DNA of 64,000 nt from Kalaharituber pfeilii (taxonomy: Eukaryota > Ascomycota > Pezizomycetes > Pezizales > Pezizaceae), in NCBI GenBank assembly GCA_015179045.1, contig WHUZ01000001.1, forward strand, positions 434,001 to 498,000, read 5' to 3'. Each line of letters begins with the position of its first letter. Within the stretch, counting starts at the first letter, position 1. Made by a program: the position numbers and the translations under genes. Positions 1-64,000 of this stretch are shown here, one piece after another. Below the pieces are notes generated by a model. The model saw only the letters and a program-made list of their open reading frames with translations, ran no database searches and was not told where the DNA came from.

Positions 1-252
1 GCTCCACCACCTCACTACATACCCCCTCTCGTCACACCACTCCACCAATTCCTTTAGCTCCTTCCACCCCAGACTTCCCTTCGCCTTAACATCCATTGGC
101 TCCTGTTCAGCCACCTCTTGAGCGACCTTAGTCGGCTCACCGCCAAACGTTCCTTCCACCGCCCCTCTATAAACCTCCTCTCCATCTACAATAATCACCA
201 GCTTGTTTAACCTCCACTGCTGTATCGTGCTGACACCTACACGAATGGCCAT
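1..252 (-). CDS. partial ORF running off the left edge, unknown protein
   Basis: An ATG at 252 opens 84 codons on the minus strand with no stop before the window edge. The predicted product is mixed hydrophobic and charged. It starts MAIRVGVSTIQQWR and includes the stretch LGWKELKELVEWCDERGYVV. The composition looks like real protein, but I recognise no family and the C-terminus lies outside the window. A non-LTR element protein is possible because the neighbourhood is TE-rich. No intron is required within the visible part. Confidence 0.4.
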   Translation of the reverse strand, partial: MAIRVGVSTIQQWRLNKLVIIVDGEEVYRGAVEGTFGGEPTKVAQEVAEQEPMDVKAKGSLGWKELKELVEWCDERGYVVRWWS

Positions 253-1552: not shown

Positions 1553-1613
1553 GTTTTTTTTTTTTTTTAAAAAATTCACGTAACCCCGCCTGCAGCTGTT
1601 CGCCATCGCAGGG
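1553..1613 (-). mobile_element. family A hairpin mini-retroposon
   Basis: The poly(T) run is followed by the complement of the family A hairpin (foot CCCTGC, partner GCGGGG). The 10-bp direct repeat TAGGTATGGG flanks it at 1543-1552 and 1614-1623, which marks a target-site duplication. The insert is about 61 bp and starts at the hairpin foot. Confidence 0.8.
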
Positions 1614-1623
1614 TAGGTATGGG

Positions 1624-2219: not shown

Positions 2220-2266
2220 GTCGCCAGCCCATAGGACGGCACGCGAGTAATGATAAAAAAAAACAA
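2220..2266 (+). mobile_element. family B hairpin mini-retroposon
   Basis: A 47-bp insert carries the family B 3' hairpin ending GCGAGTAATGATA plus poly(A). It is flanked by AATTGTTCACA (2209-2219) and AATTATTCACA (2267-2277), an 11-bp target duplication with one mismatch. Confidence 0.75.
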
Positions 2267-2402
2267 AATTATTCACATCCCAGTTCACTTGAGAAATGAA
2301 GCTATTCCAGCCGGACTCAGGCTGTTGATACGATTAGTACATGAAGGGGATTCTTCCATGCGACAGTGGGGTATGTCTTAGCGACCTTGCATCCACTGTA
2401 TA

Positions 2403-2693: not shown

Positions 2694-2757
2694 TTTTTTT
2701 TTTTTTTTTTTTTTAATATCATTACTCGCGTGCCGCCTGTGAGGCTATGGCGAGGTT
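2694..2757 (-). mobile_element. family B hairpin mini-retroposon
   Basis: Poly(T) plus a reverse-complement B hairpin. A perfect 12-bp target duplication TGTCTCCAGGTA flanks it at 2682-2693 and 2758-2769. The inner stem reads GCCT/AGGC instead of GCCC/GGGC, a compensatory change. Confidence 0.85.
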
Positions 2758-13380: not shown

Positions 13381-13452
13381 GCTCTGCTATGGCGAACAGC
13401 TGCAAGCGGGGTTACGTGAAATAAATAAAATAAAATAAAATAAAATAAAAAA
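13381..13452 (+). mobile_element. family A hairpin mini-retroposon with AAAATA tail
   Basis: The family A hairpin begins near GCTCTGCTATGGCG and runs to the conserved GCGGGGTTACGTGA. The tail is an AAAATA microsatellite rather than pure A. The 8-bp duplication CCTCTATT flanks it (13373-13380 and 13453-13460). Confidence 0.8.
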
Positions 13453-15559: not shown

Positions 15560-15573
15560 ATTCTCGAGAACCC

Positions 15574-17314
15574 AGAGGCGGGGGAGGAGGGGGAGGGGGA
15601 AGCGGAGGGGGAGGGGGACGAGAGGGAGAGGGGGAGAGTGGAAGGAGAAGTGAGGGCTGCGTTGCAGGGCACCAAGAACAATTCGGCACCGGGACCTGAC
15701 GGAATCGGATACCGATTGATCAAAGCTGCCCTGAAGACTCCCATCGGAGATGAGTTAGTAAGGGAGATCGCCGACAACTGGATCCGGAACAGGACCCCGG
15801 CGGAGTGGAGGGAGATGAGGGTCGTCATGATACCGAAGCCAGGCAAGGACATCAAGACGGCGAAAGCGTGGAGGCCAATCAACCTGATCAATTGTATCGG
15901 GAAGATCGGGGAGAAAGTCATGGCCAACAGGCTGCAGAAAGAAGACTTCCACAGGCTCCAGCTGGGAGCACGCAAGGGGAGGAATGCGATCCAGGCGATG
16001 GCGAGGGCGGTAACAAAGGTGCAGAGGTGCCTGCACAGGGGGGGGAGAGCAGCGTGGGTGACGGCAGATGTTAAAGGAGGCTTTAACATCGTGAGGAAGG
16101 AGGTGGTCCTGGGAAGGATTGAGGAGAGGGGGAGCGAGGGGGTGAGAAAGAAGCGGAGGTGGCTGGAGGAGTTTATGGGAGGCAGGGAGTTCGGAGTGTG
16201 GTGGGACGGCGAGGAGAAAGGGAGGGGCAGGTCGAACGTGGGGGTTCCGCAAGGGTCACCACTGTCGCCGGTCATCTTCCTCATCTTCATGGCACCCACC
16301 ATTGAGAAGATGGAGAGAAGGCTGAGGGGGGTGGCGGTGGGGGCGGAGGTAGAAGTGCCATCGTACGTCGACGACCTGGCAGCAACGATCCTGGACTGGC
16401 ACGGGTACTGGGATATGGGGCGGCTCAGGGAGAAAGTGAAGGTGGCAATGGCGGAGGTGGCGGAAGAAGATCAGATCCCGCTGGAGGAGTCGAAGTGGGA
16501 GATGATAACTTTCGGAGTGGGGAAAAGGTGGAAGAAGGAGGGGGAGATGCTGAAGTGGCTGGGAGTCATTTTCGACGAGAAGCTGACCTTCAGTGCGCAT
16601 TGGCGAAATAGGTTGAGTAGGGCGAGGAGGCTGGCAGGGGCACTCTCAGGACTGGGAAACCGGGACTGGGGGATGTCACCACGGAGCTGGCGGCAGGCGT
16701 ACACAGGGATGGTGAGGGCGGTGGCGATGTGGGGGAGTGAGATCGGGTGGAGGGGCCAGAAGGAGTGGAGGAAGGAGATGGAGCGATTACAGCTGCAAGT
16801 TTTGAAGAGAGCAGCTGGAGGGGGGAGAGGTGCCGGGGTGGAAGGGGTGAATGCGGTTTGCGGAGTGGAAGACGTGGAGACGGTCCTGGATGGCGCGCAA
16901 GCGAGAGCGATCGTCCGGGAGGTGGAGGCGCCGTCAGAGCTGGCGGAGCTTTGCACGGGTGACTTCGGAGGGAGTGAGGAGAGAGAGGAGGAGGCGAGAA
17001 ACTGGAGAGACTGGGGGCTGCAGTGGGCGGCGGTCGAGAATGATGGGTATGAAGCAGTGCTGGACCGCTGGCAAGGTCAGTGGGCGAGGTTCTCGGAGGA
17101 GGGGGAGGAGATCTCGTGGGGAGGGGGGTGTGAGAAGGTGGAGGTGGAGACCGCGGTGAGGCTGGGAAGAAAGAAGGGGGAAGGGAGGAGTGGGAGACCT
17201 CGGTTGAGGAAGCCGGAAGAGGGAGGGCGGTCCTGTTCTCGGATGGTAGCAAGGTCGAGGACAGCAAGGTGGGGGCGGGGGTGTGGGGGAGATCAGCGGT
17301 GGTGGCGGAGGTAG
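15574..17314 (+). pseudogene. LINE reverse transcriptase, 5'-truncated and frameshifted
   Basis: The frame encodes RT fingers and palm: GPDGIGYRLIKAAL, then VMIPKPGKDIKTAKAWRPIN, QLGARKGRNAIQA, VPQGSPLSPVIFLIFM and the catalytic VPSYVDDLA (about 16363). The visible frame starts inside the domain because of the truncation. The reading frame leaves homology near 17200 and runs out at 17314, while the RNase H continues in another frame. It is therefore dead as a single ORF. Confidence 0.9.
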
Positions 17315-17991
17315 TAGGGAGAACGGCGACGGTTTTTGACGGGGAGGTGAGGGGGGTGAGAAGGGCGCTGGAGAGTGTACCGGAGGAGGTACCGGTCCTG
17401 GTTTGCTTAGATTCTGAAGCTGCTGTCATGGCGATTCAGAAGGCAGGCAAGGAGGGAAAGGGAAAGACCGAGGATGTGAGAAGGGTGGTGAACGCGGTAG
17501 CGAGGAGGAAGAAGAAGGGAGGAGATGCGAAATTGATGTGGGTCAAGGCTCACATCGGAATCGCAGGAAATGAGAAGGCGGATGAGTGGGCGAAGAAGGG
17601 GACGGTGATGCAGGGGAAGGAGGTGGCCACCGGAAGTGGGGTGCGCCAGAGGGTGAAGGCGTGGAGGAAGGAGAAGAGAGAAGTGGAGGGCTTTGGAGGA
17701 GGAAAGGTCATGGAGTGGAATAGGATGGCAGTATCCAATTTCACTGCCTTGCGCCTGGAGAGAGGGAGGTGTGCAGTGTGGTTGAAGAGGATAGGGGCGG
17801 CTGAGTCGGATAAGTGCAGGTGCGGGGAGGTGCAAACCGGGGAGCATCTCGCTTTCCGATGCAGAAACCAGAAGACCCGTCCAGAAGGCTTTGAGAGGTG
17901 GGGCGACATGGAAAAGAATTGGAAGAGAAAGGCGGAGAATGGGGAGGAGTATGACGTTTTGGAGAATTTCTTCGCTGGGGTCAAGTTCTAG
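17230..17991 (+). pseudogene. LINE RNase H and C-terminal zinc knuckle, separate frame
   Basis: In the frame shifted relative to the RT, the sequence encodes AVLFSDGSKVEDSKVGAGVW (first catalytic Asp), VCLDSEAAVMAIQKA, WVKAHIGIAGNEKADEWAKK and a knuckle-like CRCGEVQTGEHLAFRC. This is a type I RNase H followed by the terminal Cys/His motif typical of Tad-clade elements. A frameshift near 17200-17225 separates it from the RT. Confidence 0.88.
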
Positions 17992-18192
17992 AAGGTAGGA
18001 GAATGCGGGGTCAGGTTCTAGAAGCTAGGAGAGCGGGGGCGACGGCGCGTGGGGGCCATGTACGTAGAGAGTTAGTTTAGCCTGTCTCCGGGCTATGAGG
18101 GCTTGCCCAGGGACCCTGTCATGGCCAAGTGCTACAAGCGGGGTTATGTGATTAAAAAAAAAAAAAAAAAAAAAAAAAATTCTCGAGAACCC

Positions 18193-18245
18193 GCCATAGC
18201 CCACAAGGTGGCATGCGAGTAAAAATATATTAAAAAAAAGAAAAA
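18193..18245 (+). mobile_element. family B mini-retroposon at the LINE 3' junction
   Basis: GCCATAGCCCACAAGG...GCATGCGAGTAA followed by A-rich tail, inserted in the 3' target duplication of LINE copy 1. ATTCTCGAGA occurs immediately before it and again at 18246-18255. Confidence 0.75.
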
Positions 18246-18255
18246 ATTCTCGAGA

Positions 18256-23921: not shown

Positions 23922-23988
23922 TTTTTTTTTTTTTTTTTGTTTTGTTTTTTATATCATGAATCGCGTGCCGCCCTAAGGGCTATGGCGA
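23922..23988 (-). mobile_element. family B hairpin mini-retroposon
   Basis: Poly(T) plus a reverse-complement B hairpin. A perfect 10-bp duplication TCCTTTGTGT flanks it at 23912-23921 and 23989-23998. Confidence 0.85.
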
Positions 23989-25590: not shown

Positions 25591-25848
25591 ACATGGGAAA
25601 GAAAGTGGCCAGGGGGACGAGACGCCCGAACGAAACCTCCGAGAGGGGCCGATGGGGAAGGAGACCCGCTCGTTGAACTGATGGAGTTGGTGGAAGGATA
25701 GGGGAATCTACATGTGGCTGCTAGAGTCATAGTTTTATCCTTTATTCTCTTTATTTTCCTTCCTTCGATCTCTTATGTAACTAAACTGTCGCCGTAGCCC
25801 CTAGGGCTGTACACGTCTAATGATATTTTTTTTAAAAAAAAAAAAGAA
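25591..25848 (+). mobile_element. 5'-truncated copy of the family B LINE
   Basis: About 258 bp: the end of a coding region (GGGAAAGAAAGTGGCCAGG), a 3' untranslated stretch, the B-type end GTCTAATGATA and poly(A). It is flanked by GCGGAATACTA (25580-25590) and GCGCAATACTA (25849-25859). This shows what lies upstream of the B hairpin in its parent element. Confidence 0.75.
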
Positions 25849-27874: not shown

Positions 27875-27932
27875 TTTTTTTTTTTTTTTTTATTTCACGT
27901 AACCCCGCTTGTAGCTGTTCGCCATGGCAGGG
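27875..27932 (-). mobile_element. family A hairpin mini-retroposon
   Basis: Poly(T), then the complement of GCGGGGTTACGTGA and the rest of the A hairpin, ending exactly at the GCCCTGC foot. A perfect 14-bp target duplication CACGTGCTGCCCTT lies at 27861-27874 and 27933-27946. Confidence 0.9.
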
Positions 27933-27946
27933 CACGTGCTGCCCTT

Positions 27947-36734: not shown

Positions 36735-36786
36735 TCTTTTTTTTTTTTTATATCAGTACTCGCGTGTCGCCCTATGGCTATGGCGA
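36735..36786 (-). mobile_element. family B hairpin mini-retroposon
   Basis: A 52-bp insert: T-run and reverse-complement B hairpin starting CCTCGCC on the minus strand. A perfect 11-bp duplication AGCTAGAGGAA lies at 36724-36734 and 36787-36797. Confidence 0.87.
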
Positions 36787-36797
36787 GGAGCTAGAGG

Positions 36798-38128: not shown

Positions 38129-38716
38129 GCCAGGCCAGGCCAGGCCAACCGGAGGCCTGGACTGGCCTGGACCATGAAATTCTGGGCCTGGCCTGGCCTG
38201 AACAATCAGGCCAGGCCGTGAGGGCCGCCTGGACCGGCACAGGCGGCCTGAAACAATCAGGCCGATCAGGCCATTCAGGCCGGTCCAGACCAACCAGGCC
38301 ATTTACGTAAATTCAAGCGATTTTAGAATTTAACCCAGGTGAATTAGATTTCAATAGTCCTGGATATTTCCACTATTAGTAATTGACAGTTGCGCATTAG
38401 GTATCATCATCGAAGAATTGAGTCCCGTCTGTTGTATTATCTGGAAGGTCCATCATTTCTAAAATATTTCTTAGTATATATACTTGAATACAAAGTGTGA
38501 TACATACTTGACAAGAGTCATAGACCGCTGCTGTTTAGAATTCTAGATATACGGGAGATTCTACTCATTTAAATACTGAAACAATCTGGTAAATACTGGC
38601 CTCAATTCACCCTGGATAGCTGTGGAGTGATTCGTTTAATTGGCCTGAACCGGCCTGATTGGCCTGGACTGGCCTGAATGGTCTGGACCGGCCTGGTTGG
38701 CCTGGACCGGCCTGAA
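38129..38716. mobile_element. CAGGCC/GGCCTG palindromic element
   Basis: The left 170 bp are packed with CAGGCC motifs and the right 80 bp with GGCCTG. The left segment CAGGCCGGTCCAGACCAACC is nearly the exact complement of the right GGTTGGCCTGGACCGGCCTG. The interior is AT-rich and non-coding. Such arrayed subterminal motifs suggest a non-autonomous DNA transposon whose transposase binds GGCCTG. The right end abuts a family B insertion, so the target duplication could not be read. Confidence 0.6.
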
Positions 38717-38748
<32 letters not shown>

Positions 38749-38875
38749 CATTAATCGCATGCCGCCCTATGGGCTATTTTTTTTTTTTTTTTTTAATTTC
38801 ATTACTCGCATGCCGCCTTATAGGCTATGGCGAGGTGCCCTATGGGCTATGGCGATGTTTAGTTACATGTGAGGA
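38717..38875 (-). mobile_element. family B retroposon, outer copy of a nested pair
   Basis: T-run, B hairpin split after GGGCTAT by another insertion, then the remainder with ATCGC stem and upstream TAACTAAACATCGCC on the minus strand. The stem pairs as ATCGC/GCGAT. Confidence 0.8.
38778..38836 (-). mobile_element. family B mini-retroposon nested in another family B copy
   Basis: A 59-bp insert flanked by a perfect 14-bp duplication GCCCTATGGGCTAT (38764-38777 and 38837-38850) that itself belongs to the host B hairpin loop. Confidence 0.88.
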
Positions 38876-47420: not shown

Positions 47421-49542
47421 ATGGCTGCGAGCGTCCCCGACAAAACAGACATCCCGGCTACCGGTCCGTCCACTACGCGAAAGGGCAAGGCACCAGCTTC
47501 CTGGCCCACAGTGGTCACCAGCAACCTCAGTACTTCAACAATGGCTCAACAAGCCGATGACTGGGACCTAGATACGGTCTCCGAAGCAGGCATTCTCACT
47601 CCCCAAACTGGTGCCTCAACCCCAACTAGGAATGCTCTAGAGTTTGCGCTAGCTGGTATTGCACAAATGGGCAGTCGCAGCGATGAAACCAGCCCAATAA
47701 GCCCAGAGCTCACACAAATATACACAGGTTGCGATGAGGAAAGTATGATACTGAAGGTCAATTTTGTGCCGAAATCCTCTAGAGATGTGATCTATGCATG
47801 GTGTTTCCGTGTTGCCGAGGATAAAATTTGCCAGAGCCCAGTGTTGAAATCCGCTCTGCAGGGATGGACTGGAACCAAGGATGTGGGCATTTTGCGCACT
47901 ACGTGTCGAAAAGCTCCCATTGAAAACAGTCCTGGGATAGAAGTGAAAGTTCTTACGCTCACTTGCCCTATCCCATTCTCGGCATCCACAAGCGAAAAGG
48001 ATCGGGAGGACCTTCATCAACAAGTTGATGCTGTCCGTGACATTCTAATGGCATTGCATGGGAGGAGAGAACAAATTCCTGCCACATACAGTTTGCCCGA
48101 AGTCGAGTACCGTGTGATGTGGGCCCACTGGTTCCAATGGGTTGAATCAATCTTGACGCAAATTCGGCTGTGGCTTATAGCACTCGAACCGACGATCACA
48201 GAACAGCTAATGGAGCAGAGAATGGAGCACAAGGAAGTGAAGTCACTGCTCAACATATCTTTCATTCTAGGCGACATGCCAGCCTTTGAATATTTTTCTC
48301 GACGGTATATATTAACAATGATACCACGCTCAGCTACCTCAGCACCATCTTCCTTTCCCACACTTAATGTGTACGATTTTGTTGTTCCGATCATGGAAAT
48401 TCAAGGTTAGTCCCTCCACCAAACTCCACGCGGGCTACTTGCATGTTGCATAACTCAGGCTAAGCCATTGCCGCATTGCGTGTGTTGCAGATCACATTAT
48501 AAGCACGATAGAAGATGCTAGAGGGAAACTGAGAAAGCTGGTTAAGTCGATCGTGTTCTATCTCGTGAAGTCCAAGAGTGTGAGAACAGACCACCCTGCA
48601 CTGGATATGAAGGGCTTCGTATTGGACTGGGACAGCTTAAAGTCTCGTTGTTCCCTCATTATGCTCGGCATCTTGCTCCAGAACCTCGATGCTGAGTTCG
48701 GTCATGCTGGTCCCTGCATCACTAGTCCGAGTTCGACCACAGAAAGTGCACGATTGTGGAGCACACCATGTAACTTTTGCGATGGGATGCCTTGGTGTCT
48801 TGCGGCTAATGACTCATTATTTCAAATTTTCGAAATATTTCAGAGGGTTGTCGACAGTGTGCACAAGATCTATGAACAGCGCTGCTTGCACCAGCCTTCC
48901 TGCACTTTGTTCCTTCAAAACATTCAACAGACACTATTCACAATTGAAAGTGAAATTGAGGGGTTCAAACTCCTGATCTCACAGAAGCAGATAGATCGCA
49001 TTCTTCGCCCATGTATCCAGAGCAATCTGGTAAAGAGGCAAAACCTTGTAGAACGGCTTGAGGGGCAGGCGCAGAAATTGGACTTTTCGGCAGCATCAAA
49101 AAGACTGGAGTTCTGGGGTCTGAGTGGCTACTTGCGACGAACCTGGGATCTTCCGCAGCGTTCAATGGAGGTAGAAAGGGATTTCATGAACGGATGTCCT
49201 CGTACACAGCCTGAAGAGACGGGTTCCCAAGCCGAATATTCAAGTAATTCTGCAAGCCCGTCCGCTAAGGCAATGCAAAGCCCGAAGAATAATAGTTTGG
49301 GCACGAGAACGATGAACGGAGCTTCGCATCCTAGATCAAAGTGGCCTTGGTATCTATTGGCGATTTTGCTTGTTGTCGTCCTGCCCCTTCTTTTGATGGG
49401 GTTTGAGACTGAACAAAGAAAGTTTGAAACTGAACAAAGGAAGTTCGAAACTGAGCCAACAAGATTTGATTCTGAACAAAGTAAGTTTGAGACTGAACGA
49501 ATGAGGTTTGAGACTGAACAAAGGAAGTTGGAGACTGAATGA
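47421..49542 (+). CDS. membrane protein with heptad-repeat array, ends at an in-frame TGA
   Basis: Exon 1 (47421-48405) and exon 2 (from 48491) join across an 85-nt intron (GTTAGT..TTGCAG) in phase 1, giving 678 residues to the TGA at 49540. The N-terminus is Ser/Thr/Pro-rich; the middle is helical with many leucines and cysteines (GVLDW-type WDSLKSRCSLIMLGIL). A hydrophobic span (LLAILLVVVLPLLLMGF) near 49350-49404 is a likely transmembrane helix. It is followed by a 7-residue repeat FETEQRK (24 units in DNA), which would form a charged coiled coil. The frame is open again after the TGA and ends in a second hydrophobic span, so the ancestral protein probably continued. Family unknown; no enzyme motif seen. 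The stop arises where a sister unit has CGA. Confidence 0.7.
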
Positions 49543-49905
49543 ATGAGGTTCGAGACTGAACAAAGGAAGTTTGAGACTGAACAAACAATGTTCGAGACTG
49601 AACAAAGGAAGTTCGAGACTGAACAAAGGAAGTTTGAGACTGAACGAACAACGTTCGATACTGAACAAAGGAAGTTTGAGACTGAAAAAAGGAAGTTTGA
49701 GACTGAACGAACAACAGTTGAGACTGAACAAAGGAAGTTCAAGACTGAACGAACAATGTTTGAGACTGAACAAAGGAAGTTTGAGACTGAACGAACGAGG
49801 TTCGACACTGAACGAAGGAAGTTTGAGACTGAACAAAAGAGGTTCGAGACTGAACAAAGGAAGTTTGAGACTGAACGCAAGAGGTTCGAGACTGAACAAA
49901 AGAAG
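49402..49905 (+). repeat. 21-bp minisatellite encoding a heptad repeat, 24 units
   Basis: The unit is close to AAGTTTGAGACTGAACAAAG; the array is exactly 504 bp. Units vary mainly at the last two codons (CAA or CGA, then AAG or ATG). The frame is kept throughout except for one CGA-to-TGA change at 49540. The minus strand is also open, a by-product of the repeat. Confidence 0.95.
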
Positions 49906-51416: not shown

Positions 51417-51723
51417 GTGCGGAGAGGCGGAGGAGACCACCAGACATCTACTGGAGGGGTGTAGAGTGTGGCAGAAGAAATGGCCAGGGGGGATGGCAGC
51501 AATAAGAAAGCCCCCAAAGCGCAGGAAAGGAGAAGGTGACCCACTACAGGGGCTGATGGAGATGATGGAAGAGGACGGAGAACCTTAGCCACATTTTAGT
51601 TTGACAGTATTTTATTCTCTTTATTTCATTTTGCTTTTTGCTCCCATCTATTACATGTACTTAACACATCGCCATAGCCCACAGGGCGGCAAGCGATAAA
51701 TGATATAAAAAAAAAAAAGAAAA
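51417..51723 (+). mobile_element. 5'-truncated family B LINE inserted at a start codon
   Basis: 307 bp. It encodes a Cys/His knuckle (CLCGEAEETTRHLLEGC) and the last residues of the LINE ORF, then the 3' untranslated region, the ATCGC/GCGAT hairpin and A-tail. A perfect 13-bp duplication TCACGATGCGCTT lies at 51404-51416 and 51724-51736. Confidence 0.9.
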
Positions 51724-53036: not shown

Positions 53037-53102
53037 GCCCTGCCATGGCGAACAGCTGCACGCGGGGTCACGTGACAAAAAAAAAAAAAAAAAAAGTATA
53101 TG
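53037..53102 (+). mobile_element. family A hairpin mini-retroposon
   Basis: Starts GCCCTGCCATGGCG, ends GCGGGGTCACGTGAC plus A-run. Duplication TAGGTAGCAC at 53027-53036 and 53103-53112. Confidence 0.88.
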
Positions 53103-53181: not shown

Positions 53182-53452
53182 CTTTCTTTATTTAGGCTCA
53201 TTAGGGATGGTTTTACGAGGGGACTGAGACTGATGGGACCATTTTCCTCCTCCTCCTTTTCCTTACTTCTCATTATAGACAGGACAGATTGTTTTCCTCA
53301 ACCCTTCCTTTCCTTTTTCTTATCTTACTTCTCATTACAGACGGGACGATTACGGGCGACGGAGATTCTTTCCTTGACTTTTCCTTTTATTCTGTACGTA
53401 TTTCATCTCGCCATAGCCCCTAGGGCGGCACGCGAGTAATGATATAAAAAAA
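53182..53452 (+). mobile_element. 271-bp family B retroposon
   Basis: Ends CTCGCCATAGCCCC...GCGAGTAATGATA plus A-run; pyrimidine-rich interior. Perfect 12-bp duplication ATATTCTTGAGG at 53170-53181 and 53453-53464. Confidence 0.85.
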
Positions 53453-63270: not shown

Positions 63271-63286
63271 TTGTATTATATTATAT

Positions 63287-63344
63287 TTTTTTTTTTTTTA
63301 TTTCACGTAACCCCGCTTGCAGCTGTTCGCCATGGCAGGGCTGC
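63287..63344 (-). mobile_element. family A hairpin mini-retroposon
   Basis: T-run, complement of GCGGGGTTACGTGA and the A hairpin, ending at the GCCCTGC foot. Short duplication ATTATAT at 63280-63286 and 63345-63351. Confidence 0.75.
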
Positions 63345-63589: not shown

Positions 63590-63636
63590 TCTGGTCGTAG
63601 CTTCTGGCCGGTACACGAGTTATGATAAAAAAAAAA
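63590..63636 (+). mobile_element. family B hairpin mini-retroposon
   Basis: 47 bp ending ACACGAGTTATGATA plus A-run. Flanked by GACCTACACTCATA (63576-63589) and GACCTACGCTCATA (63637-63650), 13 of 14 identical. Confidence 0.82.
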
Positions 63637-63703
63637 GACCTACGCTCATACTAGGCTTGTACAGACGGCCCCTACACAGTGCATAAAATTGAACATGCTG
63701 AAA

Positions 63704-64000
63704 TTAAACCTCCAACGTATCAACAACACCAGTCCCTTCATTTGCAGTGGAGTTGACTCTCTTTGACTCCAACAATCGCACTATATCTTCATGTCCGCTT
63801 TTGGCTGCCAAAGCTAGTGGTGGGCGAATATAGTTGGAGAGGGCCGGAATCGGATTGGCCCCTCGATCAAGTAGGAGTGTGACAAGTTCTTTCTGACCCG
63901 TAAATGCAGCTGCACCCAGGGCAGTCCCGCGCCCTGCCATGGCGAACAGCTGCAAGCGGGGTCACGTGATATATAAAAAAAAAAAAGGGCAGTCCCGTAC
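63704..64000 (-). CDS. ankyrin-repeat protein, C-terminal part, interrupted
   Basis: The minus strand encodes two ankyrin units, TALGAAAFTGQKELVTLLLD followed by RGANP, and PPLALAAKSGHEDIVRLLES, then a short tail to the stop at 63704. The gene continues past the window edge. A 57-bp family A insert with its 11-bp duplication sits just upstream of the first unit and adds 68 nt, which shifts frame. However, the insert read in this direction supplies a T-run, a GTGAC/GTAAC-like branch and CTTGCAG, after which the frame runs on into the ankyrin unit (LFAMAGRG). It may therefore act as a new splice acceptor. Role unknown: ankyrin repeats mediate protein contacts and are common in fungal NLR-like and other adaptor proteins. 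Confidence 0.75.
63930..63986 (+). mobile_element. family A hairpin mini-retroposon inside the ankyrin gene
   Basis: 57 bp starting at GCCCTGCCATGGCG and ending GCGGGGTCACGTGATATAT plus 12 A. A perfect 11-bp duplication GGGCAGTCCCG lies at 63919-63929 and 63987-63997. Confidence 0.92.

Follow-up and report, generated by a model that had tools for sequence, protein, structure and literature searches.

Short inserts that begin at the foot of a conserved 3' hairpin of two LINE families in Kalaharituber pfeilii

The DNA analysed here (hereafter the window; 64,000 nt of contig WHUZ01000001.1) contains copies of two LINE families, A and B, together with much shorter inserts that hold one hairpin followed by an A-tail (Table 1). 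In the window, separate frames of family A carry the domains for reverse transcriptase, RNase H and endonuclease (Pfam RVT_1, RNase_H and Exo_endo_phos). For family B, RNase H is encoded in the long copy L036 along with a C-terminal knuckle (a zf-RVT match that falls short of the Pfam cut-off), and a partial RVT_1 match, also below the cut-off, lies in a B-like frame of L124. In the RNase H-knuckle part, the two families share 29% identity over 255 aligned residues. With RNase H and a C-terminal knuckle present, the Tad1/I-like clade is a candidate placement. The first-pass annotation had described the hairpin as the 3' end of a knuckle-bearing LINE, citing longer copies at 25591, 51417 and 53182; the coding content of the long B copies bears this out, and LINE sequence and target duplications were confirmed for all three. 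The window also includes a 21-bp tandem repeat (24 copies, 49401-49905) within an open frame that encodes FETEQRK repeats, and a lipoxygenase whose best PDB match is entry 6ns2, presumably a fungal enzyme.

Table 1. Hairpin-only inserts and longer LINE copies of families A and B in the window
Feature	Position	Strand	Start, target duplication and remarks
Hairpin-only B insert with A-tail	2694..2757	-	start 3 nt upstream of outer stem (AACCTCGCC); 12-bp duplication TGTCTCCAGGTA on both sides
Hairpin-only B insert	2220..2268	+	start at foot (GTCGCC); duplication TTGTTCACA/TTATTCACA, one mismatch, by eye; script score 8
Hairpin-only B insert, ATCGC/GCGAT stem type	23922..23988	-	duplication CACAAAGGA by eye; script picked a different repeat, placing the start 8 nt upstream of GCC
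Hairpin-only B insert	36735..36788	-	start CCTCGCC; duplication TTCCTCTAGCT
Hairpin-only B insert (ACCTCGCC), nested in hairpin of older B copy	38778..38836	-	duplication TAGCCCATAGGGC by eye
Diverged hairpin-only B insert	63590..63637	+	duplication GACCTACACTCATA/GACCTACGCTCATA
Hairpin-only B insert	18189..18246	+	start ~ACCCGCC; TTCTCGAGA at 15561, 18180 and 18247
Longer B LINE copy: knuckle-coding end, 3' UTR, hairpin, A-tail	51417..51719	+	duplication TCACGATGCGCTT
Longer B LINE copy, hairpin at end (L016)	53182..53451	+	start 228 nt upstream of GCCATAG; duplication ATATTCTTGAGG
Longer B LINE copy, diverged hairpin at end	25591..25847	+	GCGGAATACTA/GCGCAATACTA by eye
5'-truncated A LINE, A-type hairpin at end	15574..18179	+	Pfam RVT_1, RNase_H; duplication TTCTCGAGAACCC by eye
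Hairpin-only A insert (GCCCTGCCATGG..CACGTGA)	63931..63986	+	duplication AGGGCAGTCCCG
Hairpin-only A insert	53037..53094	+	imperfect duplication GTATAGGTAGCAC/GTATATGTAGGTAGCAC by eye; missed by script
Hairpin-only A insert	13381..13452	+	duplication CCTCTATT, script score 8 (under count threshold)
Hairpin-only A insert	27875..27933 (low end approximate)	-	duplication AAGGGCAGCACGTG
Hairpin-only A insert	1553..1614 (low end approximate)	-	duplication CCCATACCTA
Probable hairpin-only A insert	63286..63341 (low end approximate)	-	weak duplication, score 8

All seven of the short B copies listed previously are present, each with a recognisable duplication, but two of them have a different history from the one proposed. 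The copy at 38778 is a nested insertion. The copy at 18193 had been read as the product of a LINE junction; by eye, the tiny B copy is the older of the two inserts, and the family-A LINE (about 15574-18179) later hit its left duplication. The starts, which had been called uniform near the 5' foot of the hairpin, are uniform to about +/-3 nt but are not base-exact. Tiny B copies inside the hairpins of older A or B copies were seen in three cases (38700-38860, L169 and L190), with duplications, as judged by eye, of TAGCCCATAGGGC, about TCGCCATAGCCTTAC and TATAGCCCTGCCAT, respectively. A second start peak at the foot of the inner stem was considered and rejected, since its example in the window is a nested insertion.

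The RNA end of family B is predicted to fold into an outer stem (CUCGC/GCGAG), an asymmetric internal loop (CAUA/GGCAC), an inner stem of 4 bp and a 3-nt loop, in agreement with the two-stem hairpin originally described, and with energies of -12.0 to -13.6 kcal/mol and z values of -2.1 to -2.3 (three sequences). Two base pairs covary among 102 distinct family-B hairpins, and the observed pairing was never equalled in 1000 column shuffles. The outermost pair is formed in 93 of the 102 hairpins (C-G in 60, A-T in 27; shuffle maximum 70), and the innermost in 95 (C-G in 64, T-A in 27; shuffle maximum 86). The remaining seven pairs are nearly invariant, and so carry little information on covariation. 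The hairpin of family A is homologous to that of family B: the two are built alike, and in an alignment of ten A and B hairpins GCCATRG and the 3' flank match up. Its predicted folds have energies of -14.3 (subtype A1) and -15.0 kcal/mol (subtype A2), and are not unusual with respect to shuffled sequences (z -1.1 and -1.2). By the two covarying pairs and the alignment of A with B, these LINEs have the conserved 3' stem-loop that is expected of the stringent type. With gathering scores as the cut-off, Rfam gave no match in the window; at four loci it gave only two weak matches (E 4.2 and 4.6), neither of them at the hairpin; ARAGORN found no tRNA in the window. A third family-A hairpin subtype, with the inner stem GGCU/AGCC, was seen at L032, L099, L120 and L122, where the copies are LINE-like or unassigned. 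Separately, in a longer family-B copy at 2431-2490 the hairpin loop is enlarged by 20-odd bases, with repeated CCCTCAGGG.

Use of a 71-bp copy as the query against the whole genome (78 Mb, 360 contigs) yielded 2985 candidates at first look, and 40 of them were scored. Three hairpin patterns had 400 (200 per strand), 486 and 87 exact matches across the genome, and the reversed pattern of each had 0. Inspection covered 90 of 100 listed places for the pattern with 400 matches, 30 of the 486 and 20 of the 87, along with 40 of the 84 exact A1 copies (two of which, L184 and L185, look like a single duplicated place) and 20 of the 27 A2 copies that lack a LINE prefix. Family-B copies were detected by the 3' half of the hairpin and the A-tail only, a procedure that is blind to the 5' end. 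In this paper, the chance sample is the set of copies met in the window and in 3-kb stretches that had been fetched for another copy (76 distinct family-B copies, 50 with a mapped duplication), and the listed sample is that of places fetched on purpose and selected by an intact hairpin (n=140, 76 mapped). The mapping threshold was a duplication score of 9; for chance level, mismatched pairings reached at least 8 near the foot in 3 of 267 cases. Left out of the family-B counts were the central copies of L001-L008, chosen by similarity to a tiny copy, as well as L169-L172 and L193-L223, and copies with identical flanks were entered once in the start, class and covariation counts. In one such pair, L084 and L088, a single tiny copy recurs on contigs C38 and C45 with flanks that are identical as far as printed, which points to contig ends that are duplicated or else to a segmental duplication. 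The counts of starts, covariation and classes come from a redone search; the figures for duplication length, target letters and microhomology come from an earlier catalogue, in which diverged copies are undercounted because its fuzzy search skipped weaker matches that preceded better ones. The early listing of family-A copies was made with the same kind of search.

The 50 mapped starts of the family-B chance sample, measured in nucleotides upstream of GCCATAG, are concentrated at one point. Seven are inside the hairpin, 18 are at 0-8, two at 9-20 and one at 21-40; farther out there are two at 41-60, six at 61-100, five at 101-200, four at 201-400 and five at 401-1500. The 9-nt stretch at the 5' foot of the hairpin thus contains 18 of the 50 starts, as against 11 across the next 92 nt. 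One of the seven inside-hairpin starts is that of the nested copy at 38778, which the script mis-set to -26 and which is really a foot start. LINE-like sequence lies upstream of 11 of the 26 unmapped copies. In the listed sample, foot starts account for 30 of the 76 mapped copies. Upstream similarity to other copies was found for three of the 18 chance and three of the 30 listed foot starts (6 of 48), some of which may be misplaced; for at least one, the copy at 18210, the similarity is due to a preceding poly(A) run. In four copies (L066, L198, L199 and L133) the start is close to a recurring (C)ATGTA motif, at 11-19 nt upstream of the foot.

Ordinary random 5' truncation, which has no fixed start point, had been judged incapable of producing such starts, and the smooth spread that would speak for it was sought in the samples and not seen. 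The density of truncations does climb toward the 3' end, as random truncation would have it, but the peak persists in the chance sample, for which only the 3' half was used in detection: there, 18 of the 27 starts within -26..20 (p 9e-8), and 18 of the 36 within -26..100 (p 5e-12), are at the foot when compared with an even spread. We consider it hardly credible that the peak is due to random truncation or to a bias in the choice of copies.

Across the family-B copies counted (n=216, of which 181 could be assigned), 48 start at the foot, 125 are longer, eight start inside the hairpin (the nested 38778 among them) and 35 are without a class, so that about one quarter are at the foot. The share of foot starts does not differ between the three B stem classes (12/29, 25/99 and 11/41; p 0.23). 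Because tiny copies occur in all three at similar rates, they appear to form repeatedly, and a single tiny-SINE lineage is rejected for family B. The proposal that a minimal hairpin RNA is mobilised as a tiny SINE is accordingly not supported for this family, but may still apply to subtype A1 (see below). A CCT..AGG subtype was also considered as one that has tiny copies only, and was rejected: of 20 places inspected among its 87, six are tiny copies whose start was mapped, some 11 look LINE-derived by eye, and three are ambiguous or start farther upstream.

The foot-start effect is not limited to family B, and the peak is sharper in family A. Of 43 family-A copies in the chance sample, 20 were mapped, with 13 starts within -2 to +2 of the foot (seven exactly there); beyond this cluster the next mapped start is at 176, and the rest are farther. 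The subtypes A1 and A2 both yield tiny copies, and differ strongly in how many of their hairpins belong to longer LINE copies. For A1 there are 84 exact hairpins. Among the 40 inspected, LINE sequence lies upstream of five (L150, L158, L178, L179 and L183; three by the script filter and two more by eye), and 35 have none in the printed bases, although eight of these 35 are without a mapped duplication. With the rows assigned to LINE by the script set aside, ten A1 rows are unmapped and 27 starts are mapped, 26 of them at 2-9 nt before CATGG, including 12 exactly at GCCCTGC. The remaining start, at 84, is that of L190, where by eye a tiny family-B copy landed inside the A1 copy. The A1 LINE-prefix pattern matches 13 places, 11 of which are among the 84 hairpins; in one of these 11 (L149), a tiny copy, it is the end of the duplication that by chance reads GAGGG. 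For A2, the LINE prefix is present in 77 of 104 exact hairpins, a very different share from that of A1 (11/84; Fisher p 3e-16, computed with 13/84, the contrast being no weaker with 11). In the 20 inspected of the 27 A2 copies without the prefix, ten start no more than 2 nt from the foot (nine mapped, and L211 weak), nine are LINE variants, and L200 is ambiguous.

Tiny copies thus make up most of subtype A1, which may be a retroposon lineage in its own right, 39 nt in length. With 35 of 40 exact copies lacking visible LINE sequence upstream, a single 39-nt sequence and a near-fixed start, it speaks for a tiny SINE in the strict sense, i.e., a hairpin-only RNA that is transcribed from source loci of its own and bred as a lineage. 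However, the same hairpin also ends LINE copies (the five above), A2 yields tiny copies as well, those of family B are spread across all stem classes, and a promoter within 39 nt is, to our knowledge, hardly possible. For these reasons, transcription from dedicated source loci seems an unlikely origin for the inserts.

The joints of tiny and longer copies are much alike. In the earlier catalogue the median duplication is 12 bp for both foot (45) and long (61) B copies, and the letters at the nick are similar, although the A before the nick is partly a product of stripping a leading A from the duplication. Microhomology at the 5' joints is mostly 0-2 nt for tiny copies and 0-1 nt for ordinary truncations; the groups are not clearly different, and microhomology was dropped as a means of discriminating run-off from stopping. 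Insertions shorter than the hairpin also occur. In five of 42 A-runs without a hairpin, a duplication ends 4-9 nt before the run (null expectation ~0.05 per replicate for those bins), leaving a stub with poly(A) between target duplications: CACGTG in L024, AAAAG in L102, ATGTGATTT in L117, and TTGATAT and TGAT in L126. Four of these resemble A or B tails and the fifth (L102) does not. Given the tail-only inserts and the inside-hairpin starts, the enzyme therefore also stops short of the foot. A 40-nt insert of another kind lies on the minus strand of L023 (about 1721), with a duplication (ACTCCACCGAGA) and an A-tail and without an A or B hairpin. It holds CCCGC..GCGGG followed by CATCATGT, resembles the window at ~2530-2575, inside a longer B copy, and is perhaps an alternative 3' end.

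Such early stops are what one would expect if target-primed reverse transcription were abortive, that is, if the enzyme lost its grip once the hairpin had become RNA:DNA, so that a fixed share of inserts ended at the foot although the template was intact and longer. The constant share of about one quarter of B copies at the foot, whatever the stem class, is likewise as predicted by a fixed failure to escape. On the other side, A1 and A2 have similar folds and very different LINE shares, and the composite inserts described next show the enzyme going on to another RNA past the foot. We hold abortive copying to be possible, if on the doubtful side.

Composite inserts, in which the end of a B hairpin is followed within 32 nt by the start of another hairpin, were found at eight places genome-wide with a search pattern that demanded a hairpin start next to the tail. 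In five of the eight (C7, C124, C157, C223 and C295), no more than about 3 nt separate the end of the A-tail from the next foot; one of the others is nested (C299, L169), and two (C309 and C348; L198 and L199) are joined 11-15 nt upstream of the foot rather than at it. A single outer duplication surrounds the whole pair in L194 (C124; TAGGGCACACTC) and L195 (C157), with a score of 12 each, compared with a chance level of 10 in 952 trials over 800 nt for scores of at least 12. L091, which is outside the eight pattern matches, has a direct joint without an A-tail and an outer duplication of score 10. None was found within the available flanking DNA of L193, L196 and L197. The three composites with outer duplications show that the reverse transcriptase passed from a hairpin foot to another LINE RNA. 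In L194, copying went on for ~350 nt (counting the tail) once the foot had been reached, and this continuation makes the structure easier to reconcile with run-off at the end of a template than with loss of the enzyme. Most simply, the first RNA of each pair would have ended at the foot. As judged from the inserted sequences, and in small numbers, the composites would favour template RNAs that end at the foot over an enzyme that stops there.

Taken together with the start peak, this suggests that a hairpin-only RNA fragment may itself be copied into the genome. Our preferred explanation, to which we assign a probability of about one half, is accordingly worded in terms of template ends. The RNAs of two related LINE families would end in a conserved hairpin of 35-40 nt right before the poly(A) tail, and this hairpin most likely serves as the recognition mark for the LINE's own reverse transcriptase. 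In addition to LINE RNAs, both full and broken, the cell would contain polyadenylated 3' fragments whose 5' end is at the foot, arising, for example, by 5'-to-3' decay or a cut that is halted at a protein-bound stem. Such fragments would be complete templates for target-primed reverse transcription: the enzyme would copy tail and hairpin, run off at the foot, and either join the target or jump to the tail of another LINE RNA, and the genome would thereby gain inserts of ~40 nt plus tail. A tentative extension is that polyadenylated hairpin-only RNAs of ~40 nt are a normal substrate of retroposition, and that A1 is now a self-standing retroposon lineage of 39 nt in which only the recognition mark for the reverse transcriptase is left. 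The foot could alternatively be set at the DNA level, if the hairpin folded as DNA and so fixed the end of the cDNA or the second-strand step. The cDNA of the hairpin could probably fold as well, and the starts do coincide with the foot of the stem, but no fold-back product happened to be noticed among the inspected copies, and we regard DNA folding as very improbable.

Known SINEs have a head with a promoter. Unlike them, the inserts described here are hairpin and tail alone, and arise in several LINE subtypes; the inspected ones hold no RNA polymerase III head (tRNA, 5S or 7SL), and have the LINE-shared 3' tail, the A-tail and the target duplication that define the rest of a SINE. R2 elements are known for end-to-end template jumping, and the composites resemble R2 jumps and the joints of ZfL2-2 in their head-to-tail arrangement and their small microhomologies or extra bases, unlike which the jump point here is at or near the hairpin foot. 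For the 5' joints of ZfL2-2, the cited section of PMC2666801 gives ~40% with extra bases and ~50% with microhomology, and proposes a template jump. According to the cited sections of PMC4176376 and PMC3747384, stringent LINEs recognise a 3' stem-loop that is shared with SINEs, and such pairs are reported in the Tad1 clade too; as in these partners (UnaL2, ZfL2-1/ZfL2-2), the 3' stem-loop or tail is here common to a LINE and to short elements. In the same part of PMC3747384, the truncation points of 5'-truncated LINE copies are said to vary, and the copies to be 100 to 1,000 bp long. The inserts are like these in having a target duplication, an A-tail, similar joints and a missing 5' part, and unlike them in that their starts pile up at one structural point. 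The human L1 enzyme engages a stem-loop of its template Alu RNA, and hairpin-only inserts are not described in the cited part of that report (PMC10830416). In the open-licence papers searched, the accessible sections gave no description of hairpin-only LINE inserts.

Inserts of ~40 nt plus tail are probably easily overlooked by repeat annotation. The 18 family-B foot starts in about 271 kb would correspond to an order of five thousand in 78 Mb, a rough figure, as the sampled stretches are the window and copy-adjacent DNA rather than random DNA. If the preferred explanation is true, the tiny inserts would be a genome-wide footprint of the smallest RNA that is accepted by such a LINE enzyme and, with two related hairpins and several subtypes, would allow the determinants of a LINE insert's 5' end to be assayed by counting natural copies.
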